In this document: positions 1,570 to 20,558 of the stretch, one piece after another
How positions within the stretch are numbered: position 1 is the first letter of the stretch
Layout of the letters: each line of letters starts with the position of its first letter
DNA from: a bacterium
GTDB lineage: Bacteria; Zhuqueibacterota; QNDG01
Reading direction: 5' to 3'
DNA: 32,173 nucleotides
NCBI GenBank assembly: GCA_021158245.1
Contig: JAGGVB010000091.1
Location: forward strand, 1 to 32,173
Notes under the pieces: generated by a model
Told to the model about the DNA's origin: nothing
Database searches by the model: none
Seen by the model: the letters and a program-made list of their open reading frames with translations, nothing else
Position numbers and translations under genes: made by a program

Positions 1570-2331
1570 ATGGATGAAGAAAAGAGAAAAAAACTTGAAG
1601 AATTGCGTAAAGAACTGGACCCGGAAATCCTGTCAAAGATGGCGAAGTATCTTGGCGGTGACGAGGCTGCTGCAGCTGCGAGTATCGGAACCGGCGCAGT
1701 AAAATCTTCCGCAGGCCCTGCTGATACTTTAATCCCGAAGTCTGCTGCGGAGAAAAGCAGGGAAAGAAGAGCAATGCGGTTTCAGGAGAGGATGGCGAAG
1801 AAGAGAAGGGAAAATGGTACCTATATTGAAGTACCGCAGAATCGGAATTCTAATATCCACTTTGAAAGGCCCGTATATATTTTTAGTTCTCTTGATATCT
1901 GGGCTAAAATTATTGACAGCCAATTCAAACTGCTTGGTTATCAGGAGTCATTAGTTTTTTCTTCTTTTTCATCATTAATAAAAGAAATTCTCAACAGCCA
2001 TAAAGAGAATAAAGAAAAAATATTTTATGTGGCTGTAGCTTTTCAGGATATAAAATCATTTATCATGGGCTGGCAAAACCTGAAAAATATGGCATTAAGC
2101 GAAGAAGCATTGAAATTCCTTGAGGGCATCCATGTTTTTTATGTTGTGGAATCAATGAAACAGATTGGAGATAGGTTTATTAGTATGTATGGTTCTGATA
2201 AAATTATTGCAATTACTGACGAGCCTGATGAAAACAGGGCCAAAGTGGTTTCCGTTGCAGGTGGCGGCAATTCATTATCTAAGGGAAAAGAGTCAGGGAG
2301 AGAGGAAAATGAAACGAATACTAATAGTTGA
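1570..2331 (+). CDS. Uncharacterised protein with probable degenerate receiver domain
   Basis: 253 aa, family not recognised. The first ~100 residues are highly charged and probably partly disordered, opening with MDEEKRKKLEELRKELDPEI, with an Ala-rich stretch and an RRAMRFQERMAKKRRE basic segment. Residues ~98-230 read like the alternating strand/helix pattern of a CheY fold: VYIFSS, a helix ending LLGYQ, KIFYVAVAF, IHVFYVVE, KIIAITDEP. The acidic pair after strand 1, the phospho-acceptor Asp after strand 3 and the Lys after strand 5 are all missing, so it would be a pseudo-receiver; this is inference. It overlaps the next gene by 23 bases, which suggests translational coupling with the CheY-like receiver. 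A likely job is a non-phosphorylatable adaptor in the chemotaxis array. Confidence 0.8.
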   Translation: MDEEKRKKLEELRKELDPEILSKMAKYLGGDEAAAAASIGTGAVKSSAGPADTLIPKSAAEKSRERRAMRFQERMAKKRRENGTYIEVPQNRNSNIHFERPVYIFSSLDIWAKIIDSQFKLLGYQESLVFSSFSSLIKEILNSHKENKEKIFYVAVAFQDIKSFIMGWQNLKNMALSEEALKFLEGIHVFYVVESMKQIGDRFISMYGSDKIIAITDEPDENRAKVVSVAGGGNSLSKGKESGREENETNTNS

Positions 2332-2740: not shown

Positions 2741-4510
2741 ATGGAGTCTATGGCGCAGGATATTGAACTTGTAAAAGAATTTTTAAATGAAACGACAGAA
2801 CTTCTCGAAAATCTGGATAATGATCTGGTAAGCCTTGAAACGGAACCTGAAGATAGTGAATTAATAAATCGAATCTTCAGAGCATTTCATACAATAAAAG
2901 GGACATCCAGTTTCCTGGGATATGATCAGCTTGTGGAGCTCGGCCATGCGGCTGAGGATGTGTTAAGCCTTTTACGGGACGGTGAGCGTATTGTAACATC
3001 AGATATAATGGATATTCTTCTTAATGCAATTGATAAACTTAAAATTTTGGTTGATCAGATTCGGAACGATAAAATTGAAGCAATTGATCTTTCGAATGTA
3101 TTAAAAGAGCTGTTAAAAATAAAAAATGGTGAAATCGGGATAAAAAATCTGGCTGAGAAGACATCCGAAACAGAAAGCAGCCCGGAAGAAGAGAAGAGGC
3201 CTGATGGAAACAGAGAAGAGAACCTGAAGAAGAGTGCTCCGGAGAAAAAAGAGAGAGGAGACAGGTTTAAAGGTGTGGAGACTTCAACCATACGTGTTGA
3301 TGTGGAAAGACTGGACGGCTTGATGAATCTTGTAGGTGAGCTTGTACTTGAAAGAAACAGGCTTCTGCAGGTAAACAGAGAATTCAGGGTAACTCAGGAT
3401 TGGCAGGATTATGAAGAGAAAGTCGCAGATACAACAGAAAAAGTAAATTTTATCACTGCAGAGCTTCAGCTTTCAGTATTAAAAATGAGAATGGTTCCTA
3501 TTGACAGGCTTTTTAAAAAGTATCCCAGACTTATGAGGGATATTGCAAGAGACAAGAATAAAAAAGTTGAGCTTGTAATTTCCGGAGGTGAGACCGAGCT
3601 TGACAAGACAGTTATTGATCAGGTTGGGGATCCTATTGTTCATCTTATGAGAAATGCAATTGATCATGGAGTTGAACCCCCTGAAGAGAGGCAGAGAATG
3701 GGGAAGCCGAGAACAGGGAAAATAGAGCTTTCTGCTTCTCAGGAAGGGAATCACATAATTATTTCTGTCAAAGATGACGGAAGGGGCCTTGATATTGAAA
3801 AGATAAAACAAAAAGCACTTGAAAAGAAAATGGCCACGGAAGCGCAGCTTAAAGGAATGTCAGACAATGATGCAATGCAGTTAATATTCGAACCTGGTTT
3901 TAGTACTGTCGATAAAGTGAGTGACCTCTCGGGCAGAGGTGTGGGGATGGATGTAGTGCGGAATAATATCCGTAATCTAAATGGGATAATTGACATGCGC
4001 AGCAATTTCGGCAGGGGTACAGAAGTTATTTTAAAACTGCCGCTGACGCTTGCTGTAATTCAGGCTCTGATGGTAGGAGTGGGCAGGGAAATTTATGCAG
4101 TTCCTTTGACATCAGTAATTGAAACAATCAGAATTGATACAAAAGAAATTCAGACAATTGATCATAGAGAAGTGATTAGGCACCGTGATTCAGTAATACC
4201 TGTGCTTTTCCTGAAAAGAATTTTTAATGTTGCCAATGACAGTGATGATGTAAGTGATGGAAAATCAATTAAATATGTAGTTTTAATTGCAATCGCGGAA
4301 AAACGTTACGGGCTTATTGTTGATCATCTTCTCGGACAGGAAGAAGTTGTTATTAAATCTCTCGGAGAATATTTGGGAAATGTACCCGGAGTAGCAGGAG
4401 GTACAATCACAGGGGACGGGCTTGTACGATTGATTCTGGATACTGCCAATGTAGCGGAAATCGCAAAAGAGAAGTATTATTCTGCTCAGAATACGGTAAT
4501 AGAGGATTAA
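2741..4510 (+). CDS. cheA: Chemotaxis histidine kinase CheA (no recognisable P2)
   Basis: 589-aa kinase that autophosphorylates on an HPt histidine under receptor control and passes phosphate to CheY and CheB. Domains: P1/HPt residues 1-105 with phospho-acceptor H50 in AFHTIKGTS; an acidic/basic low-complexity linker ~130-180 where the CheY-binding P2 domain normally sits; P3 dimerisation ~185-250 (LMNLVGELVLERNRLLQ); P4 ATPase ~255-435 with N-box HLMRNAIDHGVEPPEER, G1 DDGRGLD and G2 SGRGVGMDVV; P5 CheW-like ~437-580. Start at 2741 has AAGGGAAG upstream; Met4 at 2750 is an alternative. It is followed 10 bases later by cheR. The apparent lack of P2 makes it shorter than enteric CheA (about 650 aa). 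Confidence 0.97.
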   Translation: MESMAQDIELVKEFLNETTELLENLDNDLVSLETEPEDSELINRIFRAFHTIKGTSSFLGYDQLVELGHAAEDVLSLLRDGERIVTSDIMDILLNAIDKLKILVDQIRNDKIEAIDLSNVLKELLKIKNGEIGIKNLAEKTSETESSPEEEKRPDGNREENLKKSAPEKKERGDRFKGVETSTIRVDVERLDGLMNLVGELVLERNRLLQVNREFRVTQDWQDYEEKVADTTEKVNFITAELQLSVLKMRMVPIDRLFKKYPRLMRDIARDKNKKVELVISGGETELDKTVIDQVGDPIVHLMRNAIDHGVEPPEERQRMGKPRTGKIELSASQEGNHIIISVKDDGRGLDIEKIKQKALEKKMATEAQLKGMSDNDAMQLIFEPGFSTVDKVSDLSGRGVGMDVVRNNIRNLNGIIDMRSNFGRGTEVILKLPLTLAVIQALMVGVGREIYAVPLTSVIETIRIDTKEIQTIDHREVIRHRDSVIPVLFLKRIFNVANDSDDVSDGKSIKYVVLIAIAEKRYGLIVDHLLGQEEVVIKSLGEYLGNVPGVAGGTITGDGLVRLILDTANVAEIAKEKYYSAQNTVIED

Positions 4511-4520
4511 AGGATATAGA

Positions 4521-5351
4521 ATGAGCGATTTGTTAAAAATACGTGATTTGGTTTATCAGGAGACAGGAATGTATTTCCCTGATGATAAACAGTACTATTT
4601 TGAAGGCAGGTTTAAACGCCGGATTGAATCATTGGGGCTGAAAGATTTTAGTGAATATTATTCCTATCTGTCAAAGAAGGAAAACAAGAGAGACGAATTC
4701 TTAAACTTGATGAATGAACTCACAATCAATGAGACAAGTTTTTTCAGGAACAAGGCTCATTTCCATGCGCTTCAGGAGATTATAATCCCGGAAATTGCTG
4801 AGAAGAAAAAGGATATGGCTTTCAGGAAGATTAAATTCTGGAGTGCCGGATGTTCATCAGGAGAAGAAGCATATACAATTGCAATGATAGTAAATGAGTT
4901 GAAGGAAACAATTTTAAGCGGATGGAGTATTGAAATAATTGCTACTGATATTAGTGAAAGAGTTCTGAATATTGCAAGAAAAGGTGAATACAGACAATAT
5001 GCTGTCAAAAATATGCCTGAAGAGTATAAAAACAGATATCTAACCTTTAATAACGGAATCTATACTGTAAAAAAAGAACTGAAAAATTATATAAAATTTT
5101 CAAATGTAAATCTTAATAATGACATGTCAATGCTTTTTATGAAGGGGTTTGATATTATTTTCTGCAAGAATGTTTTGATATATTTTGACCTTGCGTCAAA
5201 AAAGAGAGTTATTTCACATTTTTTTAACGCCCTTGATGTAGGGGGAAATCTGTTCATCGGGTTCTCAGAGTCGCTTTTTGGAGTTGACAGCAGATTTAAA
5301 CTTGTTCATTTCCCCGGGGGAATGGCTTACCGCAAAGATATTCATATTTAG
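4521..5351 (+). CDS. cheR: Chemotaxis protein methyltransferase CheR
   Basis: 276-aa S-adenosylmethionine-dependent enzyme that methylates receptor glutamates for adaptation. The N-terminal helical domain (~1-70) precedes the diagnostic LTINETSFFRN segment. The SAM-binding site reads FWSAGCSSGEEAYTIAM, then IIATDISERVLNIARKGEY, and the core motif FDIIFCKNVLIYFD; length is typical of the family. The gene starts 10 bases after cheA and ends 9 bases before the HDOD gene, so it is cotranscribed. Its substrate is presumably the receptor encoded at the start of the window and others elsewhere. Confidence 0.97.
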   Translation: MSDLLKIRDLVYQETGMYFPDDKQYYFEGRFKRRIESLGLKDFSEYYSYLSKKENKRDEFLNLMNELTINETSFFRNKAHFHALQEIIIPEIAEKKKDMAFRKIKFWSAGCSSGEEAYTIAMIVNELKETILSGWSIEIIATDISERVLNIARKGEYRQYAVKNMPEEYKNRYLTFNNGIYTVKKELKNYIKFSNVNLNNDMSMLFMKGFDIIFCKNVLIYFDLASKKRVISHFFNALDVGGNLFIGFSESLFGVDSRFKLVHFPGGMAYRKDIHI

Positions 5352-5360
5352 AGGTAAAAG

Positions 5361-6257
5361 ATGAGGGTTAATGATAAAGATTTGTTAGTTAATACATATG
5401 TTACCCGCGCAATGCCGATTCCGACTTTGCCGAGTGTTGTTTCAAGAATACTTGAACTTTCAGGCAAGCCGGATGCGAAGGTGGAGGAAGTTGCAGATGC
5501 TATTCTGACGGATAAAGTTTTAACTGCACGCATGATAAGATTGGTAAATTCTGCATTCTGGGGTATCAGGAGGAGAATAACTTCAATTCGGGAAGCGATT
5601 GTTTACTTAGGGTTGCATCAAATCCGCAGTATAGTTCTTACTACATCTCTATTTAATTCTTTTCCGGAGAAGAATCCTTCTTTTGATATCAGGCGTATTT
5701 GGGAACACGGGCTTGGTGTTGCTATGGTAAGCCGCCGTATTGCTGAAAAAGTAGGGTACAGTGATTCTGAAAAGGCGTACATCGGGGGATTGATGCATGA
5801 TATAGGGGAAGTTTTGCTGAGCCAGTACAGCCTTAATGAATTTGAAGAAGTGATTGAAGTTGTTAAAAATGAAAAGATATCTTTTTATGATGCGGAGAAC
5901 AGGGTTATAGGTGTGAATCATACTGATTTTGCAGACTGGTTTGGCGAGCACTGGGGCTTTTCGGAAGAGTATGTTGAAGTTATTGCAAAACATCACTCAT
6001 TAGAAGAAGCGGAAATCAATCCTCCTCTTGTTGCAATTGTTGTTTTGGCAGATTTGTTGTGCAGAGTACGCGGCCTTGATTACGGGTTTGAGGAAAATAT
6101 AGAAATTGTTTTAAAAGATGAACTCGCATGGAAGATTCTTGTTGATGACAATCCTGATCTTGCTAAAATAGACCTTGTCAGGTTTACCCTGGATCTGGAT
6201 GCACTTATTGCAGAAGTTAAAACAATTGTCAGGGATATATACAGAAGTGATGATTAG
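5361..6257 (+). CDS. HDOD-domain signalling protein
   Basis: 298-aa protein almost wholly made of an HDOD domain (about residues 15-220), a helical HD-related output fold found with two-component and chemotaxis systems. Visible markers are PIPTLPSVVSRIL, VLTARMIRLVNSAFWG, the HD dyad H146-D147 in GLMHDIGEV, and NHTDFADWFGEHW followed by KHHSLEEA. No EAL, receiver or GGDEF domain is fused. A Shine-Dalgarno GAGG lies just before the ATG. It sits between cheR and cheB. A paralogue closes the signalling block at 21350-22252. Catalytic activity is not established for this family. Confidence 0.93.
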   Translation: MRVNDKDLLVNTYVTRAMPIPTLPSVVSRILELSGKPDAKVEEVADAILTDKVLTARMIRLVNSAFWGIRRRITSIREAIVYLGLHQIRSIVLTTSLFNSFPEKNPSFDIRRIWEHGLGVAMVSRRIAEKVGYSDSEKAYIGGLMHDIGEVLLSQYSLNEFEEVIEVVKNEKISFYDAENRVIGVNHTDFADWFGEHWGFSEEYVEVIAKHHSLEEAEINPPLVAIVVLADLLCRVRGLDYGFEENIEIVLKDELAWKILVDDNPDLAKIDLVRFTLDLDALIAEVKTIVRDIYRSDD

Positions 6258-6291
6258 TATAAGAAAATGTTGATATGGAGACTCAATTGAT

Positions 6292-7371
6292 ATGAATAAC
6301 ACCCGGAAGCAAATTAATATTCTTGTTGTTGATGATTCTGCGTTCATGCGGGTTGCCCTGAAAAAAATTATTGAGGAAGACGGCACGATAAAAGTGATGG
6401 ATGTTGCACGGAACGGCGAAGAAGCCCTGAAAAAGATAAAGAGGCATAAACCTGATCTTGTTACTCTTGATATTGAAATGCCTGTAATGGACGGATTAAC
6501 AGTGCTTGAGAAAATCATGAATGATATGCCTATGCCTGTGATAATGATAAGCTCTTTGACAGAGGAAGGCGCTGATGCGACTATGCGTGCTCTTGATCTT
6601 GGTGCTGTTGATTTTATACCCAAGGGAGGCAAATCCTATGTAAATCTTGATATTGTCAAGGTCGGTGAGCAGCTAAGGCAGAAGATAAGGGCCATTGTTA
6701 AAAAGGGCAGAATACAAAAATACGGTATGCAACCCGGATCGGGTGCAGATAAGAAATCATTTCAGCCGGATTACGTCAATCTTCCGGCAGTAAAGGAAAA
6801 GTGCGGTGTTGTTGCTTTGGGTGTTTCTACTGGCGGCCCTCTTGCGCTTCAAAAAATGATACCTATGCTTCCGGAAGATTATCCGTCAAGTATTCTTGTT
6901 GTTCAGCATATGCCGCCGATGTTTACAAAACCTTTTGCAAAAAGATTAAATCAGCTTGCCAAAGTAAAAGTTAAAGAAGCCTCTGAAGGAGATATTACAG
7001 AACCCGGGACAGTTTTTATTGCACCCGGAGGAAAGCATATGATATTTGAAAGAAGGAGCGATGGGAAACTTGTAATAATACTTTCTGATATTCCCGGTGA
7101 TACACTTTTCAGGCCTTCCGTAGATGTGATGATGCTTTCAGCTGCATCTGTATACAGAAGAAAGATTCTCGGAGTGATTATGACAGGCATGGGAAATGAC
7201 GGGCTGCAGGGAATGATAAGAATTAAAGATCTTGGCGGAACAACACTTGCACAGGATGAAGCCTCATGCGTTGTTTATGGAATGCCTAAAGCATGCGTTC
7301 AGAACGGTATAATTGATCAGACCATTCCACTTGAATTGCTGGCAAACAGTATTGTTCATTATTCCGGGTAA
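6292..7371 (+). CDS. cheB: Protein-glutamate methylesterase CheB
   Basis: 359-aa two-domain adaptation enzyme that removes methyl groups from receptors (and deamidates Gln) when phosphorylated by CheA. Residues 1-125 are a receiver with D14/D15 and phospho-acceptor D60 in VTLDIEMPVMDG. A ~45-residue linker leads to the esterase domain with its full catalytic triad: S179 in GVSTGGP, H206 in VVQHMPP and D303 in MTGMGNDG. Length and motif order match the family. It is 34 bases downstream of the HDOD gene and 33 bases upstream of the first cheX. Confidence 0.98.
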   Translation: MNNTRKQINILVVDDSAFMRVALKKIIEEDGTIKVMDVARNGEEALKKIKRHKPDLVTLDIEMPVMDGLTVLEKIMNDMPMPVIMISSLTEEGADATMRALDLGAVDFIPKGGKSYVNLDIVKVGEQLRQKIRAIVKKGRIQKYGMQPGSGADKKSFQPDYVNLPAVKEKCGVVALGVSTGGPLALQKMIPMLPEDYPSSILVVQHMPPMFTKPFAKRLNQLAKVKVKEASEGDITEPGTVFIAPGGKHMIFERRSDGKLVIILSDIPGDTLFRPSVDVMMLSAASVYRRKILGVIMTGMGNDGLQGMIRIKDLGGTTLAQDEASCVVYGMPKACVQNGIIDQTIPLELLANSIVHYSG

Positions 7372-7404
7372 AGATATACAAAACTGAAAGAATGGGGTGT
7401 TTAG

Positions 7405-7881
7405 ATGGAAGAGCATTTTTCAAAAATCATAATTAATACTACAGAGAAAGTATTTAATAGTATGGTTTTTATGGATGTCAAGGGTAAGGAATCTGACGGG
7501 AATTTTACAATTGAGGGAGTTCATGTAACTGCAATGGTAGGATTTGCAGGAATTTATGTAGGCCTTTCAGCTATTCACTGTTCTATCGGGCTGGCACGTA
7601 AGATTTGTGCATCAATGCTGCAAATGGATCCGTCGAGCCTTACCAATGAAGATGTCCGTGATGCATTGAGTGAAATATCCAATATGATTTCAGGGCACTT
7701 TAAAGCACAGCTTGCAAATACAATTGATGCTGAAGAGCAGGTTTTCGAACAATCCGTACCATCTGTAATTAGCGGTGAAGATTATGAAACTCACGTTATT
7801 ACTGACGCGCCTCATTATTATGCAGAATTTACAACAGGGGAAGATGTATTCTATGTAGAACTTGCGATGAAAAAGGTATGA
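7405..7881 (+). CDS. CheX-type CheY-P phosphatase, copy 1
   Basis: 158-aa protein of the CheC/CheX/FliY phosphatase superfamily, which dephosphorylates CheY-P. The CheX signature helix reads EISNMISGHFK, with catalytic E90 and N93 (ExxN spacing). The surrounding alternating strands (VHVTAMVGFAGIYVGLSAIHC and QSVPSVISGEDYE) fit the CheX fold and length. A second, diverged copy follows directly. CheX is typical of bacteria that lack CheZ. Confidence 0.88.
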   Translation: MEEHFSKIIINTTEKVFNSMVFMDVKGKESDGNFTIEGVHVTAMVGFAGIYVGLSAIHCSIGLARKICASMLQMDPSSLTNEDVRDALSEISNMISGHFKAQLANTIDAEEQVFEQSVPSVISGEDYETHVITDAPHYYAEFTTGEDVFYVELAMKKV

Positions 7882-7946
7882 TTGCCGGAATCCGAATTGA
7901 TAGTCAGTGTCTATGATTAATGTGTTATAAATTATTAGGAGTTCAG

Positions 7947-8441
7947 ATGATTACACAAGAGACTGAAAAAGAGTTATTATCTAAAGCATTGGATGAAGTT
8001 TTTGGAACAATGATGAATCTTGAAGTGACTCATTGTGATTCGTGTGACGATGATGATATTATTCATCAAGAGCACCTGACTGCAACAATAGGTTTTGCAG
8101 GAGGATGGAATGGATTTGTTTCAATTGCATGCAGCATTACTACTGCACGGCTGATAACCCAGCTTCTCCTTGGCACCAATAGTGATGAAATCCCGTGTGA
8201 TGAAATCAGAGATGCAGTAGGGGAGGTTGTCAATATGGTTGGAGGAAGATATAAGACTTTGTTTTCTGAACATCAGAATAGCAGCAGGGAAGTTTTTAAG
8301 ATGTCAATACCATCTGTGGTACAGGGGAAAGAGTATAATATTTTTGCGCCTGCAAATAGCGGTTCGACAAAAATTGCAGTAGAAATAAAGGATGAAAAAC
8401 TATCGGCTTTTATTGCGTTAACTGAAGATCAAGGCAATTGA
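7947..8441 (+). CDS. CheX-type CheY-P phosphatase, copy 2
   Basis: 164 aa. The start at 7947 is chosen because AGGAG lies 6 bases upstream; the longer ATG at 7920 has no such site. Catalytic helix is GEVVNMVGGRYK with E93 and N96. It aligns with copy 1 along its length (TATIGFAGGWNGFVSIAC versus TAMVGFAGIYVGLSAIHC; MSIPSVVQGKEY versus QSVPSVISGEDY). A difference is an acidic Cys/His-rich insertion near residues 29-43 (HCDSCDDDDIIHQEH), which could bind metal; that is speculation. Two phosphatases may serve different receivers in this receiver-rich locus. The stop overlaps the longest possible reading of the next gene by 4 bases. Confidence 0.85.
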   Translation: MITQETEKELLSKALDEVFGTMMNLEVTHCDSCDDDDIIHQEHLTATIGFAGGWNGFVSIACSITTARLITQLLLGTNSDEIPCDEIRDAVGEVVNMVGGRYKTLFSEHQNSSREVFKMSIPSVVQGKEYNIFAPANSGSTKIAVEIKDEKLSAFIALTEDQGN

Positions 8442-8464
8442 GCAGGTTTAATAGGGGTAAGGAA

Positions 8465-8884
8465 ATGAAGCCATTGCCATACATTTTAAGTGCTGTAATT
8501 ATAGGTTTCGGAGGCCTTGCAGAAAAATTTGACAATACAGGACATAGTGTTACAATTGTTGTACGTCATGTTGATAAATTTAATATTCAGACTGAAAATG
8601 CTGATCAAATAAAAACAAGCGCACTTCATTGGACTTCAACGAGAAATGGAAAGAAAATTACAGTTAAAAGAATGATCTCCGGGGAAGTAACCGATCATGG
8701 GTATAATGTTATCAGATGTAATGGGGGCACTGTTGCAGAAAATATGATTTCGGCCGAATTAGACATGGATTTTATTGTTAATCTCAGCAGATCAGGGGAG
8801 TGCATTCTATATATGAAGAAGCCGAAACACGGCCGTAATAAAAGGAAAGAAGTAATTATTTATACAATAACAGACACATATTAA
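8465..8884 (+). CDS. Small protein with N-terminal hydrophobic segment, function unknown
   Basis: 139 aa, not recognised. The start at 8465 has a TAAGGAA ribosome site directly upstream and gives an N-terminus like a signal peptide or anchor (MKPLPYILSAVIIGFGGLA). An in-frame ATG at 8438 would give a 9-residue extension and a 4-base overlap with cheX; it lacks a good ribosome site. The rest looks strand-rich (HSVTIVVRHVDKF, GKKITVKRMISGEV, MDFIVNLSRSGECILYMKK) with a basic tail. It lies between the chemotaxis core and the hybrid-kinase block on the same strand, so it is probably cotranscribed. An exported or membrane-attached role is inferred only from the N-terminus. Confidence 0.72.
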   Translation: MKPLPYILSAVIIGFGGLAEKFDNTGHSVTIVVRHVDKFNIQTENADQIKTSALHWTSTRNGKKITVKRMISGEVTDHGYNVIRCNGGTVAENMISAELDMDFIVNLSRSGECILYMKKPKHGRNKRKEVIIYTITDTY

Positions 8885-8912: not shown

Positions 8913-11900
8913 ATGAAAACACCAAGAATTTTAGTGGTTGAAGACGAACGAATTGTATCAATGGAGATTGAAGATAAATTACGTGATCTCGGATATACAG
9001 TTGTTGCGTCAGTATCAAATGGTGAAGAAGCAGTAAAAATAGCTAAAATAGAACTGCCGGATATTATCTTAATGGATATAAAACTTAAAGGTGAGATGGA
9101 TGGTATTGAGGCAGCAGCTATCATTACATCAAAATCCAATATTCCTGTAATTTTCCTTACAGCATATGCTGATGAAAGGACAATTCAGCGGGCAAAACAC
9201 AGCAATCCTTACGGCTATCTTTTAAAACCCTTTGAAACAAGAGAGCTGCATACAACAGTTGAGATGGCTTTGTACAGGTCTCGTATGGAGAGGCGTATTG
9301 CTGAGAGCGAACAGTGGCTTCACACAACCTTAATCAGCATCGGAGATGCTGTTATTGCCACAGACGGCGATAAAAGAATTAAATTTATGAACAGAGTGGC
9401 GGAAAATCTTACAGGATGGCTGTTAAAGGATGCGGATAAAAAGTATGTATCCGAAGTATTCAATATTGTAAATGACGATACCAACGAGAGTATAAATTTT
9501 TTAGATACGGGTTTAAAAACAACTGACAACTACTCACTTATTACAAAAAAAGGAGATAGAGTTCAAATTGAATATACAGTTTCACCTCTTGTTAGCGAGA
9601 AGATAGCAATTGAAGGGAAAGTTTTAACTTTCCGGGATATAACAGAGAAGAAACGAACGGAAAAAGCAATTAAAGAAGCGAGAGATCAATTAAGAGAGCG
9701 CAGCAAAGCACTCGAAGCAATTAATAATAAGTTGACTGCAGAAATTGAGGAACACAACAGAACCGGAAAGGCATTGGAAGAGAGTGAAGGTAAATATTAT
9801 GCTCTTTTCAATAATATTGTTGATCCTATAATTATTTTTGATAAAAAATCAAAGAGAATAGTGCATTTTAATGAATCATTTAAAAAGGTTTACGGATATT
9901 CCGATAAGGAGATCATCTCAATGACTCCTTTTGATCTCCACCCAGAGGAAGAGTTGGATTTAGTCGAAAGTACAATAGATAAACTCAGCAATTCAACACC
10001 TAATTGCTACACGCATCTGACAAAAGACGGAAGGAAGATTCTCGTTGAGGTTCTGACTCATGAAATTGAGTATCAGGGAAAACCTGCATGGATGACTATA
10101 ATTAGAGATATTACCGGCAGAAAAGAAGCCGAAGAAGAGAAAAACAGAAGAATAGCACAAACAGCATTGATTAATGAAGTCGGAAGATATCTTGCAATAG
10201 AGCTTAATCATAAAAGATTGATGGACAAAATAGTAAGGGCTGTAAAGAAAACTTTCAATTTTGACTGGGTTACTCTTTTTCTGTCAGATACAGATAATAA
10301 AAAATTGATACTACACTCATTCGCAGGTGTACAGAATAATTTGTTACAGAAAGGAGATGAAATTCATTTTGGCAAAGGCATGATAGGTATGGCAAAAAGT
10401 ACAGGTTCAGTCCAGGTCAGTAATGATGTCAGAAAAAATCCTTATTACATCAAGATGCGGGATGAGGATATCCTGTCGGAATTGGCAATTCCTATAATCG
10501 GAAAGAGACAGAGGGTACTGGGAGTCCTTGATATTCAGAGTAAAGAATTAAATGCATTCAGTCAGCATGATGTGGAAGCCATGGAAGCTTTGTCAACTCA
10601 GATAGCTGCTGCATTGGAGAATGCAGATTTATACAAGCAGGTAAGAAAGGAACTTGCCGAGAGGAAAAAGGCAGAAGAGGAGATGAGGAAGCTAAAAGAA
10701 TTTCACGAAAGAATTCTGCAGAATATGTCAGAAGGAGTTGTTCTTGAGACGAAAAAGGGTATGCTTCTGTTTGTAAATAAGGCGGCAGCAGAAATGCTTG
10801 GAGACAGCCCTGAATATCTTATAGGGAAACATTGGAGAGATGTGATCCCGAAAAATTTGTATTCTCAGGTAAAAAATTTAAAGGACAAGATGAAAAAGGA
10901 CATTACTGAGCAGCTTGACCTTGAAATAAAAACAAAAAGAGGGAAAACTGTCCCTGTTCTTGTCAGCTCCAGTTATCTTTACAATGGGAATAAATGCACA
11001 GGAATGATAGATGTACTTACAGATATAACGGAAATAAAAAAGGTTCAGGAGCAGCTTAAGCGGTCTGCAGAGGATCTTAAGTCAGCAAAAGAACTGCAGG
11101 ATGTGTATACAAAAGAGCTGGAAGAGGTAATTAAGGAGTTAGAGAGGGCAAAAGAAAAAGCAGAGGAGGCAACACGCCTTAAAAGTGAATTTCTTGCCAA
11201 TATGAGCCATGAAATCAGGACACCAATGAATGGCGTAATAGGCATGACAGAACTTGCACTTGACACAAATCTTGACCCCGTACAGAGAGATTATCTTGAA
11301 GCAGTTTATGTATCTGCCGAATCGCTTTTAACCCTGATAAATGATATACTCGATTTTTCCAAGATGGAAGCAGGAAGGCTTGGGCTGGAAAATATTAATT
11401 TCAGCCTTGGTAATGTACTAAACAGCTCAGTACGTTCCATATTCTACCAGGCTGAGAAAAAAAATATTGAACTCCTGTATACTATTAGCCCTGAAATACC
11501 GGATAATTTAATTGGTGATCCAGGCCGAATAAGGCAGATACTGATAAATCTTTTAAGTAATGCTTTGAAATTTACAGAAGAAGGTGAAGTTCTAATCAGA
11601 GTAGAGGAGCAGGCAAAAGTTAGGAATGATGATACTATACTGCATTTTTCAGTTACTGATTCAGGAATAGGAATCCCCAAAGAGAAGCAGAAAATGATTT
11701 TTGATGTGTTCACCCAGGCTGACGGTTCAACAACGCGGAAGTACGGGGGCACTGGCCTCGGCCTTGCTATATCTTCCAAATTAGTTGAAATGATGGGCGG
11801 TGAAATATGGGTAGAAAGCCCGGCAAAACATCTCGGCACAGATAAGGGAGGAGCCGGATCAACATTCCATTTTACCCTTAAACTCGGTGTTTCTGAAAAC

Positions 11901-13145
11901 CAGATGTCTGAGAAAGAAGTTGATGATTTTACATTGGCAGGAGTAAAAATATTAGCTGTTGATGACAATAAAACAAATTTGCAGATTCTCGGCGATACTC
12001 TTAAAAAGTGGGGAGGAAGAGTTGTGCTGGCTTCAGGCGGCAGGGAAGCGCTTGAAGAGATAAAAAAAACGGAAGAGGATGGGAAACAGTTTGATATAGT
12101 CCTGGTTGATGCACATATGCCTGATATGGATGGATTTGAGCTTGCTTCAAAGATAGCTGAAATGGAAAAAGGTACAGGTGTCCCTGTTATGATGGTTTCA
12201 TCTTCGGACATTAAAAATCACAAAGATAAGTTAGATAATATAAATATTAGCTGCTATGTGCAGAAGCCTCTCAGACAATCAGATTTAAAATGTATACTGA
12301 TGGACCTTTTATCAAAAAAAGATAATAGAAATGATGCAACATGTAATAAGGCAGGAAATACTACTATGGCTTCAAGAAATAAGAAGCGTTCCAATGAAGA
12401 TGTGAAGATTCTTCTTGCAGAAGACAATCCGATAAATCGTAAACTTGCTGCATCGCTCATTGCAAAGAAGGGGTGGGATATAATATCTGTTGAGGATGGG
12501 GAAGAGTGTGTAGAGGCATTTAAACACGGGAATTTTAATATTATTTTAATGGATGTACAGATGCCGAGGATGGACGGAGTTGAAGCCACCAGAAAAATTC
12601 GTGAAATTGACAGAAAGAAAAATATACATACACCGATAATTGCGATGACAGCCCATGCAATGAAAGGCGACAGGGAAAAGTTTCTTGCAGCAGGAATGGA
12701 TGATTACATTGCAAAGCCGATGAAGGCCGCACAGCTATATGAGATTATTGGAAAGTATTTTAAAAACAGAGAGCAGCAAGAGGTGTTGACTATGGATACT
12801 GACCTCGCAAATATGGCTGATGTTATGGAAGCAGTAGATGGCGACAGGGATTTGGTAAGAGAGCTTGTACATGATTTTCTCCGTATTTATCCTGAACAGT
12901 TAGATGAATTGATTAGTGCCGTACGGAAATCCGATCCTTTACTTGTAGAACGTAAAGCTCACTCATTTAAAGGGTCAGTTGGAAATTTCGGAGTAAAAAA
13001 TGTTCAGCAATTGGCATACGAACTTGAAAAAATGGGAAGAGAATCAAAGCTTGACGATGCTGATGATGTATTAAACAAGCTGCGTCTTGAAATGGAAAAA
13101 GTGGATTCCTATTTTTCTTCGAATGAGTGGGAGAAAGAGATATGA
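8913..13145 (+). CDS. Cytosolic hybrid histidine kinase REC-PAS-PAS-GAF-PAS-HisKA-HATPase-REC-REC-HPt
   Basis: 1410-aa soluble multidomain phosphorelay kinase with no transmembrane segment. Order: receiver 1-120 (D55 in LMDIKLKGEMDG); PAS ~130-245; PAS ~289-410; GAF ~419-570; PAS ~594-715; coiled coil ~712-755; HisKA with H766 in [12 protein letters not shown]; HATPase with DSGIGIP and GGTGLGLAIS; receiver ~1010-1130 (D1066 in VLVDAHMPDMDG); receiver ~1163-1285 (D1214 in [12 protein letters not shown]); HPt ~1305-1400 with H1350 in AHSFKGSVGNFG. All phospho-sites are intact. The N-terminal receiver should place the kinase under another histidine kinase. Its start has AAAGAAGG upstream and its stop overlaps the next start (ATGA). 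It shares its catalytic half with the 1585-aa kinase at 15793. Confidence 0.96.
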   Translation: MKTPRILVVEDERIVSMEIEDKLRDLGYTVVASVSNGEEAVKIAKIELPDIILMDIKLKGEMDGIEAAAIITSKSNIPVIFLTAYADERTIQRAKHSNPYGYLLKPFETRELHTTVEMALYRSRMERRIAESEQWLHTTLISIGDAVIATDGDKRIKFMNRVAENLTGWLLKDADKKYVSEVFNIVNDDTNESINFLDTGLKTTDNYSLITKKGDRVQIEYTVSPLVSEKIAIEGKVLTFRDITEKKRTEKAIKEARDQLRERSKALEAINNKLTAEIEEHNRTGKALEESEGKYYALFNNIVDPIIIFDKKSKRIVHFNESFKKVYGYSDKEIISMTPFDLHPEEELDLVESTIDKLSNSTPNCYTHLTKDGRKILVEVLTHEIEYQGKPAWMTIIRDITGRKEAEEEKNRRIAQTALINEVGRYLAIELNHKRLMDKIVRAVKKTFNFDWVTLFLSDTDNKKLILHSFAGVQNNLLQKGDEIHFGKGMIGMAKSTGSVQVSNDVRKNPYYIKMRDEDILSELAIPIIGKRQRVLGVLDIQSKELNAFSQHDVEAMEALSTQIAAALENADLYKQVRKELAERKKAEEEMRKLKEFHERILQNMSEGVVLETKKGMLLFVNKAAAEMLGDSPEYLIGKHWRDVIPKNLYSQVKNLKDKMKKDITEQLDLEIKTKRGKTVPVLVSSSYLYNGNKCTGMIDVLTDITEIKKVQEQLKRSAEDLKSAKELQDVYTKELEEVIKELERAKEKAEEATRLKSEFLANMSHEIRTPMNGVIGMTELALDTNLDPVQRDYLEAVYVSAESLLTLINDILDFSKMEAGRLGLENINFSLGNVLNSSVRSIFYQAEKKNIELLYTISPEIPDNLIGDPGRIRQILINLLSNALKFTEEGEVLIRVEEQAKVRNDDTILHFSVTDSGIGIPKEKQKMIFDVFTQADGSTTRKYGGTGLGLAISSKLVEMMGGEIWVESPAKHLGTDKGGAGSTFHFTLKLGVSENQMSEKEVDDFTLAGVKILAVDDNKTNLQILGDTLKKWGGRVVLASGGREALEEIKKTEEDGKQFDIVLVDAHMPDMDGFELASKIAEMEKGTGVPVMMVSSSDIKNHKDKLDNINISCYVQKPLRQSDLKCILMDLLSKKDNRNDATCNKAGNTTMASRNKKRSNEDVKILLAEDNPINRKLAASLIAKKGWDIISVEDGEECVEAFKHGNFNIILMDVQMPRMDGVEATRKIREIDRKKNIHTPIIAMTAHAMKGDREKFLAAGMDDYIAKPMKAAQLYEIIGKYFKNREQQEVLTMDTDLANMADVMEAVDGDRDLVRELVHDFLRIYPEQLDELISAVRKSDPLLVERKAHSFKGSVGNFGVKNVQQLAYELEKMGRESKLDDADDVLNKLRLEMEKVDSYFSSNEWEKEI

Positions 13146-13915
13146 GTATCCTTGTTGTTGAAGATGATCAAATAACAGGAAGAATTCTGGAGCTCAACCT
13201 TAAGAAACACGGTTACGAAGTAAAAAAGACTGAAAATGGCAGAGATGCTCTTGACTTGCTTAAAACTACTCTCGGTATTGAACTTATTGTTGCAGATATA
13301 ATGATGCCTGAGATGTCAGGTATAGAGCTTCTCGAAAAGATAAAGGCTTCTCCTAAATATGAAAAGATTCCTGTGATTATGTGTTCGGCCCTGCATGATG
13401 CTGAAAATGTTAAAAAAGCTGTAAGTATTGGATGTTCATCTTATCTAGTAAAACCGGTAAATGCAGGAATCCTAATACAAAAAGTCCGTGAAGTACTTGG
13501 TGATAGCGGTATGGTATTGCAGAACAAAGATCAGGTTATGCTGCGGACCAATATGGATGAGGATGCTTACAGAACAGTTGCTGTCTCTTATTATGAATTT
13601 ATCAAAGGACTGATCAGAGATATTGAAGAATTTTTGAATAATAAAACCGGAAGTTTTACTGTTGATTTTAAAAGGCTGAGAGCAGGAGCAAAAGTGCTGG
13701 GTGCGGCCTTTATTCAAGCGAGGATTAAACAGATGGGGGGTATCTCTGATAATGGTGAAAGAGATATCTCTGAACGTGAGCAGGCTATCCTTTTAAGAGA
13801 ATTACAAGAGTTTTGTGCAGCTTTTGAAGAAAGGTATGAGGCTTACTTGAAAGTTCAGGAAGATTCTGTTATAACGAGCGATTCGGAGTTTGCATCAGAC
13901 AGGAGAACAGGATGA
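13142..13915 (+). CDS. Response regulator with C-terminal HPt-like domain lacking the His
   Basis: 257 aa. The start at 13142 overlaps the preceding stop as ATGA, with a GGAG-type site upstream; a GTG at 13127 is the alternative. Receiver residues 1-125: D8/D9, phospho-acceptor D52 in VADIMMPEMSG, and Lys in YLVKPVNAG. The C-terminal ~110 residues are helical. The segment FKRLRAGAKVLGAAF lines up with the HPt core (for comparison AHSFKGSVGNFG in the upstream kinase), with Lys at the phospho-His position. I read this as a pseudo-HPt dimerisation or docking domain; that is inference. Both ends overlap their neighbours by 4 bases, so it is translated with the two flanking kinases. Confidence 0.88.
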   Translation: MSILVVEDDQITGRILELNLKKHGYEVKKTENGRDALDLLKTTLGIELIVADIMMPEMSGIELLEKIKASPKYEKIPVIMCSALHDAENVKKAVSIGCSSYLVKPVNAGILIQKVREVLGDSGMVLQNKDQVMLRTNMDEDAYRTVAVSYYEFIKGLIRDIEEFLNNKTGSFTVDFKRLRAGAKVLGAAFIQARIKQMGGISDNGERDISEREQAILLRELQEFCAAFEERYEAYLKVQEDSVITSDSEFASDRRTG

Positions 13916-15402
13916 AAATCCTTGTTGCAGAAGATGACCCTATTTCGAGGCAGCTGCTTAAAGCATCCTTAAAAAAATGGGGTTATGAAGTATCAGCAGC
14001 TTCTGACGGCGATGAAGCATGGGCGATTCTGTCAGAAGAAAATTCTCCCCAGATTGCTGTGCTTGACTGGATGATGCCAGGCATGGACGGTATTACAATA
14101 TGCCGGAAAATCCGCAAAGAACTGCCCTCCCAGCCTGCTCGTTATGTGGTTCTGTTAACTGCAAAAGGGAGGCGTGAAGATGTAATAGCAGGATTTGATG
14201 CCGGTGCTGACGACTATGTTGCAAAACCATTTAATGCACAGGAACTAAAAGCAAGAATTAATGCAGGTGAGAGGATAATTTCTCTTCATAACACTCTTGA
14301 GTCGCATATAGACAAATTAAAGGAACTTGATCAATTAAAAAGTGAATTTCTTGCTACAGTATCCCATGAATTGCGTACACCAATTGCAGTAATGCGCGAA
14401 GGGGTGTCGCTGTGTGTTGATGGAGTAGCAGGTGAACTCAACGAGATGCAGAATGAGTTTTTAATAGATGTGCTCAACAACATTGACCGACTTTCCAGGC
14501 TTATTGATGACCTTCTTGATATATCCAAGATTGAAGCCGGTAAGGTTCTCGTCAGGAAATCCAATATTAATATCTGCGAGCTTGCAGAGAAAATAGTTAG
14601 AGATTTTAACCCTGTAGCAGGGAAAAAAGGGATAATTCTTGAATTGGCAGTACCAGATTCCGGAATTGAAATTTTTGCTGATTGGGACAGAATAGTTCAG
14701 GTTTTTTCAAATCTTATAACCAATGCGATTAACTATACTTCAGAAGGAGGCTGTGTTTCTGTTTCAGTCCAGGATGGTGATAGAGAAGTTATCTGCAGTG
14801 TAAAAGATACAGGTGTAGGTATAAGCGCTGAAAATATTCCCATGCTGTTCAATAAATTCCAGCAGTTCGGAAGGCAGGAAGGCCCCGGATACAGGGGCAC
14901 AGGCCTGGGCCTGGCAATTGTAAAGGGCCTGGTAGAGAAGCACGGCGGAAAAATACAGGCTGAATCGGAAGAGGGAAAGGGTTCTGTTTTTACGTTTACA
15001 TTGGAAAAATATTTTGGCGATAAGATTCTAATTATTGCCAAAGATAGTGAAAAACAAAAATTTTATAAGCAGTTGTTAGAGGACAGCGGCCATAATGTGG
15101 AAGTAGCAGACACCTGTGATAATGCTTCAGAGAAATTAAAATTACACAGGATGAATTTTGTAATTATAGATATATGCGGGCAGTGCGGCGCAGACGATTT
15201 TGAGAATGTAAAAAGATTTATAAAAGGGCCTGAATTTAAGTCAGTACCTGCGGTTGTTGTGCTTAATGGAAATAGAAACAATCAAAAGTTGGAGGATTTT
15301 GGAATAGATAAACCGGTTAAATTCATTATGAACCCGATTGATAAAGATTATCTGATGGAGGTTTTAGAAAAATCTTTGGCTGGTGAGGAGATTTTAAAAT
15401 GA
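13912..15402 (+). CDS. Receiver-first histidine kinase REC-HisKA-HATPase-degenerate REC
   Basis: 496-aa soluble kinase. The N-terminal receiver (1-120) has D8/D9, D52 in VLDWMMPGMDG and KPF. A signalling helix (GERIISLHNTLESHIDKLKE) connects to HisKA with H152 in TVSHELRTPIAV. The HATPase domain (~255-370) has NLITNAINYTSEGG, DTGVGIS and GTGLGLAIV. A C-terminal ~120-residue domain looks like a receiver that keeps an Asp (VIIDICG) but has lost the first acidic residue (IIAKDS) and the conserved Thr and Lys. The kinase is probably switched by phosphorylation of its own N-terminal receiver, making it an intermediate relay node. Both ends overlap the neighbouring genes by ATGA. Confidence 0.95.
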   Translation: MKILVAEDDPISRQLLKASLKKWGYEVSAASDGDEAWAILSEENSPQIAVLDWMMPGMDGITICRKIRKELPSQPARYVVLLTAKGRREDVIAGFDAGADDYVAKPFNAQELKARINAGERIISLHNTLESHIDKLKELDQLKSEFLATVSHELRTPIAVMREGVSLCVDGVAGELNEMQNEFLIDVLNNIDRLSRLIDDLLDISKIEAGKVLVRKSNINICELAEKIVRDFNPVAGKKGIILELAVPDSGIEIFADWDRIVQVFSNLITNAINYTSEGGCVSVSVQDGDREVICSVKDTGVGISAENIPMLFNKFQQFGRQEGPGYRGTGLGLAIVKGLVEKHGGKIQAESEEGKGSVFTFTLEKYFGDKILIIAKDSEKQKFYKQLLEDSGHNVEVADTCDNASEKLKLHRMNFVIIDICGQCGADDFENVKRFIKGPEFKSVPAVVVLNGNRNNQKLEDFGIDKPVKFIMNPIDKDYLMEVLEKSLAGEEILK

Positions 15403-15802
15403 GCAGTGCGGAGAATAAAAGAATACTTATTGTTGAGGATAATCCCATTTTTTTAAAGATGGTAAGAGCCCGGCTTGAGAACAAAGGTTATAGTGTGACC
15501 TCTGCTGAAGACGGCCTTACAGGATACACCAAAGCTTTGCGTGAACATCCTGATTTGATTATTCTTGATTTAATGCTGCCGAAAATGGACGGGCATAAGG
15601 TCTGCAGGCTTTTGAAATTTAATAAAAAATTTCATAATACACCGGTTATTATACTCACTTCGAGAGACCTTGAAGAAGATGCAGATCTGGCAAAAAAGAA
15701 CGGTGCAGATGCCTTTGTTGTAAAAACTACAAAAGGCGAGATCCTTATGGACGTGGTAAGTAAACTTCTGTTAAAACAGGGAAGTGCAATAGATGAGTAA
15801 AA
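15399..15802 (+). CDS. Single-domain response regulator
   Basis: 133-aa stand-alone receiver; the coding region itself ends at base 15800. Acidic pocket E13/D14 (VEDNPIF), phospho-acceptor D57 in [12 protein letters not shown], Thr/Ser in ILTSRD, Lys in FVVKTT in place of the more usual KP. The short N-terminal extension MSSAENKR precedes strand 1. Its ATG overlaps the preceding stop (ATGA) and its last 8 bases overlap the start of the propeller kinase, so it is tightly coupled to kinases on both sides and may shuttle phosphate between them. No output domain. Confidence 0.93.
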
Positions 15803-18800
15803 ATAATTCCAATACAAGATTGGTAAAAATATTCGGATTATTCCTGTTTATTATTTTAGCGTTTCAAACAACTGTTTTCGCTTTTAATACAAAAGTAACA
15901 ACAGATGCTTATCGGTTTTTACATCTGACCATTAATGACGGGTTGTCCCAAAGTGCAGTTCAAACTATTATTAAAGATAAAGATGGATTTATGTGGTTTG
16001 GTACAACTGATGGTCTAAACAAGTATGATGGATACAATTTTAAAACCTATTACAGTGATTTAAATGATACTACAACAATTACCTCAAATTGGATCAATTG
16101 TATTGCGGAAGATAGGAACGGCTCTTTATGGATTGGAACTATAAATGGCTTAAACCTTTTGAATAAAGAAAGAAATTCGTTCAATAGAAAACCGGTTAAA
16201 GGAGAAGAGGGTAATTTGTTGGCAAAAGCCATGATTAGATGCATGCTTGTTGGTGAAAATGGGATTCTTTGGGTTGCTACAAATAACGACGGATTATTTG
16301 CAGTTAATGTTAATTCCCGCACGGCTGTCCAATATACAAAAGATAGTGCAAGTGGAATTAAATTAACAGTTAATGCTGTATCATCTTTAATGTTTGACCA
16401 ATCTGGTAAAATGTTTAACAAATCCGGCAGGCTTTGGATAGGTACAACTTTCGGAATAACCATATATGATTTTGAAACAAATAGTTCAAAAATCATATCT
16501 GAAAGTTTAGATAATAGCGGATTAACCAATGATGTTGTCATGTCAATGATGCAGGACAGAGATGGAACAATCTGGATTGGCACAACTGATGGTATTGATC
16601 TTTTAAATCAGAACGGTAAAAGATTGTCTCATTATTCAATTAATGATGCTCTGCAATCCGTGCCGCATCAGGTAAATCAGATATTTCAGGATTCAAATGG
16701 TACGATTTGGGCAGCAACAGAATTTGGAGGACTAAATTATTATAATGCTAAAAGTAATAAATTTAATTTAGTGAGATATGATAAGAATAGCACATTTTCT
16801 TTTTCAGGAAGCAGGATAAGGTGTATATATGAAGATAGAGGAGGACTTCTTTGGTTTGGTACATGGGATGCAGGCATTAATTATATATCATATTTATCAA
16901 CAAAATTTTATAACTATACAGTGGGCAATAATCCGAAAATGGGATTATCCGGTAAAAATGTTTTCGGATTTCATGAAGATTCAGAAGGAATTATCTGGAT
17001 AGGCCTATCAGGAGGAGGGCTGAATAGATTTGATCCGCAAACAGGGGAATTTAAATGGTACATGCACTCCTCTTCAAATTTAAAGAGTCTAAGTGATAAT
17101 ATTGTATGGACTATATGTGATAAAGACAAGAAAAATTTATGGGTTGGTACATCAAGAGGATTAAGTGTGTTTAATAAGGAGACAGAAACTTTTAAAAGAG
17201 TTAACCCATGGAAAGATAATTATCAGCGTTCGATTTATCTTATACAAAAAGATATTTACGGTAATTTATGGTTATGTACAGCCAATAGCGGATTGTATGC
17301 TATTAGCCCTGATGGAATAGTAAAATATTTTTATTCCAATGGTGTTGAAAATAATAAAAATCTATCCAGTAATTTTATTATTTCTTTTTCTGTTGGGAAA
17401 AACAAATATGTGTGGGTAGGGACAGATAAAGGTCTTGATAAATTAGATCCGGAGTCTGGTAATGTAGTACATTATAAAGTAAACATTGGTGATAGAACCT
17501 CTTTAACCAGTAATTATATTAGTGCTCTATTTTTAGATTCTCAAAAAAGAATTTGGGTCGGCACTGACAAGGGATTAAATCTTTTAAATGAGGATGGTAA
17601 AACATTTACGCGATTTACAAGAAAGGATGGCCTTGCAAATGATATGGTTTATGCAATATTGGAGGAGGATGATACAACAAACAGTAAATGTGGAAATTTA
17701 TGGCTAAGTACAAATAAAGGGCTTTCAAAGTTTGATCCGGATAAAAAGAAGTTTAAAAATTTTGATGTTCACGACGGGCTTCAGAGCAATGAGTTCAATG
17801 CCGGTGCTGCATATAAGATGAAAAACGGATATTTGTTTTTTGGCGGTATTGACGGATTTAATATGTTTTATCCGGATAGTATTAAAATAAACAGTTATGC
17901 CCCTCAAATTATGATAACGGACTTTCAGCTCTACAACAAGTCAGTAGGTGTAGGCAAACAATACAACGGCCGTGTTTTACTCACAGCTCCTGTTTATAAG
18001 ACTCATAAAATAGTATTGTCCTATAAAGATGATGTAATATCTTTTGAATTTGCAGCTGATAATTATCTGTTTCCTCAAAAGAACAAATTTGCATACAGAA
18101 TGGAAGGTTTTGACAAAGGATGGATCTATGCAGGAAACCGGAACTATGCGATGTATACAAATTTGCCTCCCGGGCATTATACATTCCATGTTATCGGAGC
18201 CAACAATGACGGAGTGTGGAACAGGAAAGGTACTTCCATATCAATAATTGTAGTACCTCCGTTCTGGGAAACTACGTGGTTTATAATGCTATCTGTAATT
18301 CTGTTTATTGTTTGTGCTTACGGTGTATATCAATACCGAATGGGTGTTATAAACAGAAGAGCTAAAGTATTAAAAAAGTTAGTCAAAGAACGCACAAAAG
18401 AGATTGAAGAAACAAACAAAATGCTTGCCCATGAAGTGAAAGAACACGAAAGAGCAGAAGAGGAACTCAGGAGGAAGGCTGATGACCTTGAATATGCAAA
18501 AGAGATAGAAGAGAAGAACGCATCACGCCTTGTTGCGCTAATTGATGAACTCAATATTGCAAAACGAAGAGCAGAAGAAGCCACAAAAGCTAAGAGTGAA
18601 TTTTTAGCGAATATGAGCCATGAAATAAGAACTCCTATGAACGGCATTATTGGAATGACAGAACTTACTCTTGATACTGATTTAACTCCTACCCAAAAAG
18701 AGTACATGGAAGCTGTGATGACATCTGCGGAATCTCTTCTTTTCCTGATTAATGATATTCTCGACTTCTCAAAAATAGAAGCCGGAAAACTTGACATGGA

Positions 18801-20550
18801 AAAAATTCATTTTAATGTAAGGGAAACAGTTGAAAATTCTCTGCAGGCTATTGTGCATAAAGCCAATCAAAAAAATATAGAGCTTATAAGCAGAGTTTCC
18901 AATAAAATAGACAGAATGTTGCTTGGTGACCCGGGAAGGCTTAAGCAGATTATAGTAAATCTTGTAAACAATGCAATCAAGTTTACATCAGAAGGAGAAG
19001 TAGTCATTGATGTATCTGTCAGTAAAGAAGAGAGCGATTTTACAGAGCTTCTTTTTTCGGTTTCAGACACGGGAATAGGTATTCCGAAAGAAAAACAGGA
19101 TAAAATATTTGAACCATTTACACAGGTCGACGGATCTACAACAAGAAAATTCGGAGGTACCGGACTCGGCCTTTCAATATCTACACACCTTGTTGAAATG
19201 ATGGAAGGCAGAATATGGATAGAGAGTCCCTCAACAAAAAAGAATGGTCGGGCCGGAGGCCCGGGAAGCATTTTCAGCTTTACTGCAAAATTTAAAAATG
19301 GAAGACGTTTTAAAGATACTGACGGAAAAGAGAGTACAGTCTTAAATGGTTTAAAAGCCCTGATTGTTGATGATAATGGGACAAACAGAAGGCTTATGGA
19401 AGAAATTTTGACAAATTGGGGTATGAAACCCGTAACTGCATCAAACGGCCGGGATGCACTTGATATTGTAAAGAAATCCTTAAAGGGTGATGCAATTTTT
19501 TCGCTTTTTCTTTTTGATGTTAATATGCCTGAAATGGATGGCTATCAGCTGGCAGAGAATGTCCGCAGTTTTGATCCATACAAGACAAGCCCTATAATCA
19601 TGCTTACCTCTTCTGCACGTCCAAGAGACAGAGAATTTGAGGAAAAACTGGGAACTTTCCGAATTTTAAAGCCTGTAAGGCAGTCTGCTCTTATGAATTT
19701 GATATTAACCTGTTTTGATAAGGATACAGACAAAGAACGTACATCATCTGAATATACGAATCAGGAGCATGAAGAACATTTGACCGGCTTAAAAGTACTT
19801 CTCGCAGAAGATAATCCCATAAACCAGAAGCTCGCATGGACATTGCTGACGAAAAAAGGTGTTGATGTGAAAACAGTCAATAATGGTAAAGAAGCAGTTG
19901 GCCTGTACAGAGAAAAAGAGTTTGATCTGATCTTAATGGATGTTCAGATGCCGGTTATGGATGGATTTAATGCAACAGCGGAAATTCGAAGACTGGAAAA
20001 GGAGAAGAGTACACATATACCGATAATTGCTATGACTGCACATGCAATGAAAGGCGACAGAGATAAATGCATTCGTGCAGGCATGGATGATTATATAGCC
20101 AAGCCGATGAAAGCAGGGGAATTATATGGTACAATAAAAAAATATATAAGTGATAATGTGTTGCATGCTGACCTGTCAGTAAAGGATATAGAAACAACTA
20201 TTGATGATAATACCATAGAATCTGTAGATTTAAACAGCGCTCTTGAAACGTTTGACAATGACAGGGATCTTCTTTTTGGTTTATCAAAGGAATTTTTCGG
20301 ATCGTGCGGAGAGCAGATTAAAGAGCTTCAGGATTTAATTGAAAGAGGAGATGCCTATCAATTGGAACGTTCCGCACACAGGATCAAGGGAGCACTTGGT
20401 AATTTTGGAATGAAAAAAGCGTACAGATTAGCTTATGATATAGAAAAACAGGGGAAAAGCAACAAGATTGAGGGGGCAGAAAGGATCCTCCTTGAGCTTG
20501 AAAAAGAGATCACTCTGGGAAAAGAATTTTTTAATAAGGAATTAGTATAA
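15793..20550 (+). CDS. Propeller-sensor hybrid histidine kinase (HTCS-like, REC-REC-HPt tail)
   Basis: 1585-aa membrane hybrid kinase. A signal peptide (hydrophobic core [10 protein letters not shown], likely cleavage after VFA at residue 30) leads to ~720 periplasmic residues. I count 14 blade motifs of the two-component propeller type, such as [30 protein letters not shown] and [15 protein letters not shown], consistent with two seven-blade propellers. A Y_Y_Y domain follows at ~764-825 ([26 protein letters not shown]), then a transmembrane helix ~828-850 and a coiled coil. HisKA has H943 in [12 protein letters not shown]; then HATPase ([17 protein letters not shown]), receivers with D1242 and D1383, and HPt with H1529 ([12 protein letters not shown]). 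Bacteroidetes kinases with this sensor usually end in an AraC-type DNA-binding domain; this one does not. Ligand unknown; often a polysaccharide fragment in relatives. Confidence 0.96.
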
Positions 20551-20558
20551 GGCGCAAA

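Follow-up and report, generated by a model that had tools for sequence, protein, structure and literature searches.

The DNA analysed here, referred to throughout as the window, is a stretch of 32,173 nucleotides of contig JAGGVB010000091.1, from a bacterium of candidate phylum KSB1. Near its start, within a run of chemotaxis genes, lies an open reading frame of 253 amino acids (1570–2331, + strand) that we call X. Homologues of X occur in two other genomes: G001, which belongs to the same genus as the window genome (G000), and G010, which belongs to another family of the same order. The features in and around X are the following.

1–1536, + strand: MCP gene, cut by the contig start; an open reading frame named by eye, 71% identical to the MCP that precedes X in G001.
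1570–2331, + strand: X, a protein of unknown family; an open reading frame with homologues in G001 and G010 that sit among the same genes, and without a Pfam or NCBIfam match.
1570–1683, + strand: conserved N-terminal segment of X (residues 1–38), defined by identity to the homologues and holding the conserved motif GGDE(A/S)AA.
1744–1815, + strand: conserved basic helix-like segment of X (residues 59–82, SRERRAMRFQERMAKKRR), with 11 of 24 residues identical in all three homologues.
1861–2256, + strand: predicted receiver-like domain of X (residues 98–229), without conserved phosphorylation residues; from an AlphaFold2 model, VIA-align and Foldseek.
2309–2683, + strand: cheY, a genuine receiver (Pfam Response_reg, 1.1e-23), with counterparts beside X in G001 and G010.
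2741–4510, + strand: cheA with domains P1, P3, P4 and P5 (Pfam at E 0.01); no P2 detected.
4521–8441, + strand: cheR, an HDOD gene, cheB, cheX and cheX, in an order conserved in G010; CheX by Pfam.

The MCP, CheR, CheB and HDOD proteins of the window were named by eye from their translations, and we take them to be such; CheA and the two CheX proteins, as well as the CheW and ParA proteins discussed below, were identified by Pfam. After the second cheX, and before a hybrid kinase gene, comes a 148-amino-acid open reading frame (8438–8884) with no Pfam family above cut-off, which is absent from the same place in G010. Multi-receiver hybrid kinase and receiver genes, recognised by eye, then run from 8913 to 21173, directly downstream of the chemotaxis genes. 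They are followed by a second HDOD gene (21350–22252; 40% identical to the first) and, at 25253–25813, by an open reading frame that by eye resembles an IS110-type transposase fragment.

X is a real gene, because it is conserved in G001 and G010 at the same place, with dN far below dS. Comparison with the G001 homologue gives a dN of ~0.37 and a (saturated) dS of ~1.8, and codon comparison of this kind indicates that X is under purifying selection. A sequence-only reading of this DNA had placed an open reading frame at 1570–2331 that overlaps a true CheY-like gene by 23 bases; this is correct, the ATG of cheY being at 2309. Promoter-like and terminator-like signals between 1480 and 2800 are near chance (three promoter-like against 3.6 expected; two terminator-like against 1.0 expected, sd 1.0). 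No known family accounts for the protein: Pfam returns no family for the window copy up to E 10—and none of the CheX, CheC, CheD, CheZ or CheV domains at that threshold—NCBIfam gives no match, and a PDB sequence search gives two matches only, at E 0.5–0.7, which we take as chance. The sole Pfam match of the full-length G010 homologue is to UPF0154 (E 0.023, below its cut-off).

In all three carriers X occupies the same slot, between an MCP gene and cheY. The gene order common to the carriers is parA, a cheW with a long N-terminal extension, a YfiR-like gene, two MCP genes, X, cheY, cheA, cheR and an HDOD gene. The arrangement in G010 (locus L079) runs: flgN-like, flgM-like, cheY-like, parA, extended cheW, YfiR-like, MCP, MCP, X, cheY, cheA, cheR, HDOD, cheB, cheX, cheX. 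G001 has the same order from the flgN-like gene to the start of the HDOD gene, on two contigs (L028 and L027) that overlap by 99 bases, with 95% identity, inside X. The window contig begins inside the MCP gene, and the parA-cheW-YfiR-like-MCP half of the cluster lies on contig C1 of the same genome. The names flgN-like, flgM-like and YfiR-like are presumed assignments. The neighbourhood beside cheY and cheA, on which the earlier interpretation partly hung, is therefore kept in 3 of 3 carriers, though only three genomes carry X.

Two further elements of the cluster deserve description. Firstly, parA is followed by the cheW with a charged N-terminal extension at L113 (G000:C1:1-3321), L028:1808-3374 and L079:3918-5374; the extension measures 121 residues in G001 by Pfam, and is similar by eye in G000 and G010. 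Together, parA and the extended cheW may form a ParC/ParP-like pair that places arrays at the pole. Secondly, a small protein of ~180 amino acids is encoded between cheW and the first MCP gene (L028:3415-3954, L079:5512-6054, L113:1138-1842). It is apparently secreted and by eye YfiR-like; the G001 copy is without a Pfam match.

X is rare. In searches that covered 59 relatives, 82 phylum genomes and a broader set of 388 overlapping with these, it was found only in the window genome (whose one match is X itself), in G001 (54–56% identity) and in G010 (39–40% identity), all of which belong to one order of KSB1. Two scans of genome contigs gave, respectively, nothing and only two G001 records, and a plasmid search gave no match. 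Searches of the phyla to which three genomes with CheA relatives belong found X in 0 of 40, 0 of 2 and 0 of 4 genomes, some of which are also among the 388. Weak matches (E 0.016–1) in 13 further genomes of the 59 relatives and in five of the 82 phylum genomes were taken as chance. The six such places that were read (L004, L012 and, on the matching strand only, L022–L025; L005–L011, L013–L016, L018 and L026 were left out) hold unrelated genes or broken short frames.

The distribution of X follows that of one type of cheA. All 12 genomes of the order have a CheA match at E 1e-60, and the type found in the X operon (>60% identical) is present in three of them, each of which carries X. CheA of the other two carriers is 77% and 63% identical to that of the window; in the remaining nine genomes identity is at most 43%, and X was found in none of these (no match better than E 0.06). 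Likewise, 22 other genomes have a CheA match at E 1e-120, and in 15 of these the surroundings of cheA were read without revealing an open reading frame that matches X. FliG_C was found in 2 of the 12 genomes of the order, both of them X carriers; the assembly of the third carrier is 80% complete and has flgN/flgM-like genes in the same cluster. Flagellar and chemotaxis genes are reported in KSB1 clades II and IV (PMC9012183). In the few KSB1 bacteria that have it, X is probably an accessory protein dedicated to a single chemosensory system, and that system is probably flagellar. The idea that X stands in for the missing P2 domain of CheA was rejected: CheAs without P2 also occur in genomes without X and are common elsewhere, over half of all CheAs lacking this domain (PMC10782961).

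The company of parA and the extended cheW raises the possibility that X acts alongside this pair as an adaptor in array or pole placement, its conserved tail contacting ParA or another pole factor and its C-terminal domain serving only as a protein-binding fold. The three genes lie in one cluster in G001 (across the two overlapping contigs) and in G010, with parA and cheW on C1 in the window genome; among the KSB1 genomes searched, the X carriers are the only ones for which a parA homologue was reported at E 1e-40. There is also a precedent in FrzS, a polar pseudo-receiver protein of which two receiver point mutants mislocalise (PMC3158785). However, the extended CheW, with its CheW domain at the C-terminus by Pfam, already has the layout to be expected of a ParP partner (PMC5706961), and X has no CheW match in Pfam; we regard a placing role as rather unlikely. 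X does share with ParP a chemotaxis operon with a ParA-type gene and the combination of an N-terminal tail and a C-terminal domain. It has no CheW/AIF domain, the operon's extended CheW fits ParP better, and X as ParP itself is excluded by domain content (no CheW-like C-terminal domain by Pfam). Small genes beside cheY in distant operons, which we take to be CheZ-like, resemble X as small accessory genes beside cheY/cheA. Unlike X, they lie between cheY and cheA or after cheY, and they show no similarity to it at E below 0.2.

The C-terminal part of X had been read as having the strand/helix rhythm of CheY over residues ~98–230. Receiver homology is not detectable at the level of sequence. Response_reg gives no Pfam match for any of the three X domains (window, G001 and G010), X fails the curated PF00072 profile cut-off, and a PDB profile search with the domain returns no receiver among 10 matches. 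In hhalign, the X domain scores 14.6 against receivers, a value reached by 25 of 200 column shuffles and approached by the reversed sequence (13.3). Among control families from the same operons, 5 of 9 non-receivers—ParA, CheB-catalytic, HDOD, one CheX and CheW—outscore the X domain (14.7), compared with 201 for the true CheY trio. An unguided profile alignment of full-length X with the whole receiver profile does fall on residues 98–240, and the beta1-alpha1-beta2 register of X against receivers is ungapped. Because profile similarity is at background, the receiver assignment rests on the structural model.

An AlphaFold2 model of residues 98–229 (two-sequence alignment, template-free) has a pLDDT of 57 and a pTM of 0.54, the other four of the five domain models scoring only 44–49; a full-length model (pLDDT 43) gave no fold and was set aside. 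The first 90 residues of the domain model have block-mean pLDDT values of 59–79, and the model shows the elements E5-9, H12-24, E30-33, H36-49, E56-61, H64-76, H81-88 and E91-96 (domain numbering). This order, beta-alpha-beta-alpha-beta-alpha-alpha-beta, amounts to beta-alpha units in receiver order. After beta4 (domain residues 96–132) the pLDDT falls below 50, and beta5-alpha5 is unmodelled.

This model finds its best structural matches among receivers, CheY and DivK for example. VIA-align places receiver 4xlt first, with a Z of 9.3 over 88 residues at 2.4 A, a moderate margin given that best Z values of 7 to 8 are common for models without a clear match; E. coli CheY (3chy) has a Z of 8.0 over 85 residues at 2.6 A. 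Of the best 50 VIA-align rows, two are cobalamin-binding domains (3ezx, Z 8.5; 4jgi, Z 7.6) and the others carry receiver titles, except for a few (RssB, 3grc) that are presumed to be receivers. Foldseek gives no match at E 0.001 or better: the best E is ~0.07, for a KaiC chain that was set aside because its probability (0.33) and TM-score are low, and the first receivers come at E 0.084, their probabilities reaching 0.96. We consider it likely, on the strength of the model, that residues 98–229 adopt a receiver fold. The proposed CheY-like rhythm is thus supported by a template-free model in receiver order and by the comparison with known receivers, but at modest confidence and with an unreliable last quarter. 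On fold and neighbourhood together, the earlier interpretation finds partial support.

A less likely reading of the C-terminal domain is a different alpha/beta fold, of flavodoxin-like or Rossmann-like type, with a descent other than from receivers and a chemotaxis function of its own. Such a fold would agree with the background-level sequence tests, with the two cobalamin-binding domains among the best 50 VIA-align rows, and with the only Pfam match of the G010 domain, a weak one to Rossmann-like Csa3_N (E 0.14, below cut-off). We think it improbable: receivers dominate the structural match list, and it is to residues 98–240 that the unguided full-length alignment assigns the receiver profile.

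If the fold is that of a receiver, its active site would be lost. In the hhalign register, the acidic pair D12/D13 of CheY corresponds to S106, which is invariant, and to S107, replaced by T or H among the three homologues. The remaining positions were mapped by strand order rather than by residue-level structural alignment: D57 falls on F158 (F or L in the homologues), T87 on E194 and K109 on T216, the last two invariant in all three. Two acidic residues lie close by. D109, three residues after S106 and near the pocket, is invariant; D160, two residues after predicted beta3, is present in the window and G001 copies and is Lys in G010. A shifted register would therefore leave at most one conserved acid. 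Provided that the proposed register is right, the phosphorylation residues are lost in 3 of 3 homologues, in agreement with the earlier claim that all of them are replaced. If the predicted fold holds as well, the usual route of phosphorylation would be closed to X.

Conservation within the domain is uneven. Invariant columns gather in two places. One is alpha1-beta2, with 12 of 20 against 28 of 112 in the rest of the domain (one-sided p 0.003); the other is the surroundings of beta5, with 5 of 6 against 35 of 126 (p 0.01). Both figures come from only three sequences and from tests of seven segments that were picked once the alignment had been inspected. Known receivers use alpha1 to touch the His kinase or HPt domain. 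The beta5 patch would fit a different role, in which X partners CheY as the inactive half of a heterodimer and translational coupling keeps the two in step. X and cheY overlap by 23 bases (2309–2331) in the window and by 4 bases in G001; in G010 they are separated by a 12-base gap. The overlap itself is thus not conserved, and gene overlaps are common in operons, so that we think a heterodimer with CheY doubtful.

Ahead of the domain, X has a tail of ~97 residues. The earlier description called it long and charged; its charge is mixed overall (residues 1–96: 21 K+R, 16 D+E), with a basic stretch at residues 59–82 (10 K+R and 4 D+E; 5 and 3 in G010). Two conserved segments flank a variable linker. 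The first (residues 1–38) is identical to G010 at 16 of its first 27 positions, has 7 of residues 28–38 identical in all three homologues, and is helical in the low-confidence full model (pLDDT about 40–60); the second is the basic segment. This pattern would suit two short binding helices. A PDB search with the tail gives no convincing relative (two matches, best E 0.26), and among 326 open reading frames of the compared loci none but X itself matches it below E 0.15.

Taken as a whole, the C-terminal domain (residues 98–229) is, on the model, most likely a pseudo-receiver: a CheY-like fold without the acidic pair, acceptor Asp, Thr/Ser and Lys. X resembles CheY and other single-domain receivers (PF00072) in its predicted strand/helix order and its ungapped beta1-alpha1-beta2 register. 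It differs from them in having no conserved phosphorylation residue, no Pfam match and an N-terminal tail. By concept, and compared by description only, the nearest precedent appears to be FrzS of Myxococcus xanthus, likewise described as a pseudo-receiver without acceptor Asp and tied to a chemosensory pathway (PMC3158785). In FrzS, however, the pseudo-receiver is N-terminal and followed by a coiled coil, whereas the domain of X is C-terminal, behind the tail; and FrzS serves S-motility by type IV pili, whereas X lies in a cluster with flagellar genes. Pseudo-receivers are an already known kind, and it is the family of X and its setting that appear new: among the published matches listed, no title or abstract opening names a pseudo-receiver in a flagellar chemotaxis operon.

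Since X is encoded in step with CheY, is kept with one set of CheA, ParA and CheW, and would be blind to phosphorylation, its simplest reading is that of a docking or decoy module. The partners and mechanism that we infer are as follows. X would be an accessory chemosensory protein in which (i) the conserved helix-like tail anchors the protein to a component of the array or pole that the operon also encodes, (ii) the pseudo-receiver presents, mainly through alpha1-beta2, a docking face that is blind to phosphorylation, (iii) this face competes with CheY and CheB for the P1 domain of CheA, or pairs with CheY, and (iv) docking tunes phosphate flow or array assembly. To this general account we give about an even chance. 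A bolder and more specific version, to which we attach only a small probability, is that of a decoy receiver built into the flagellar array: held by its tail, X would dock CheA P1 through the alpha1 face and set kinase output by competing with CheY.

X points to a protein family that appears to be new and, within a candidate phylum, to a chemotaxis cluster of a distinct kind. If the decoy reading is right, it would add to the components of flagellar chemotaxis a receiver-shaped, phosphorylation-independent part, of which we know no other example, and a chemosensory array would be tunable by a decoy produced in parallel with CheY.
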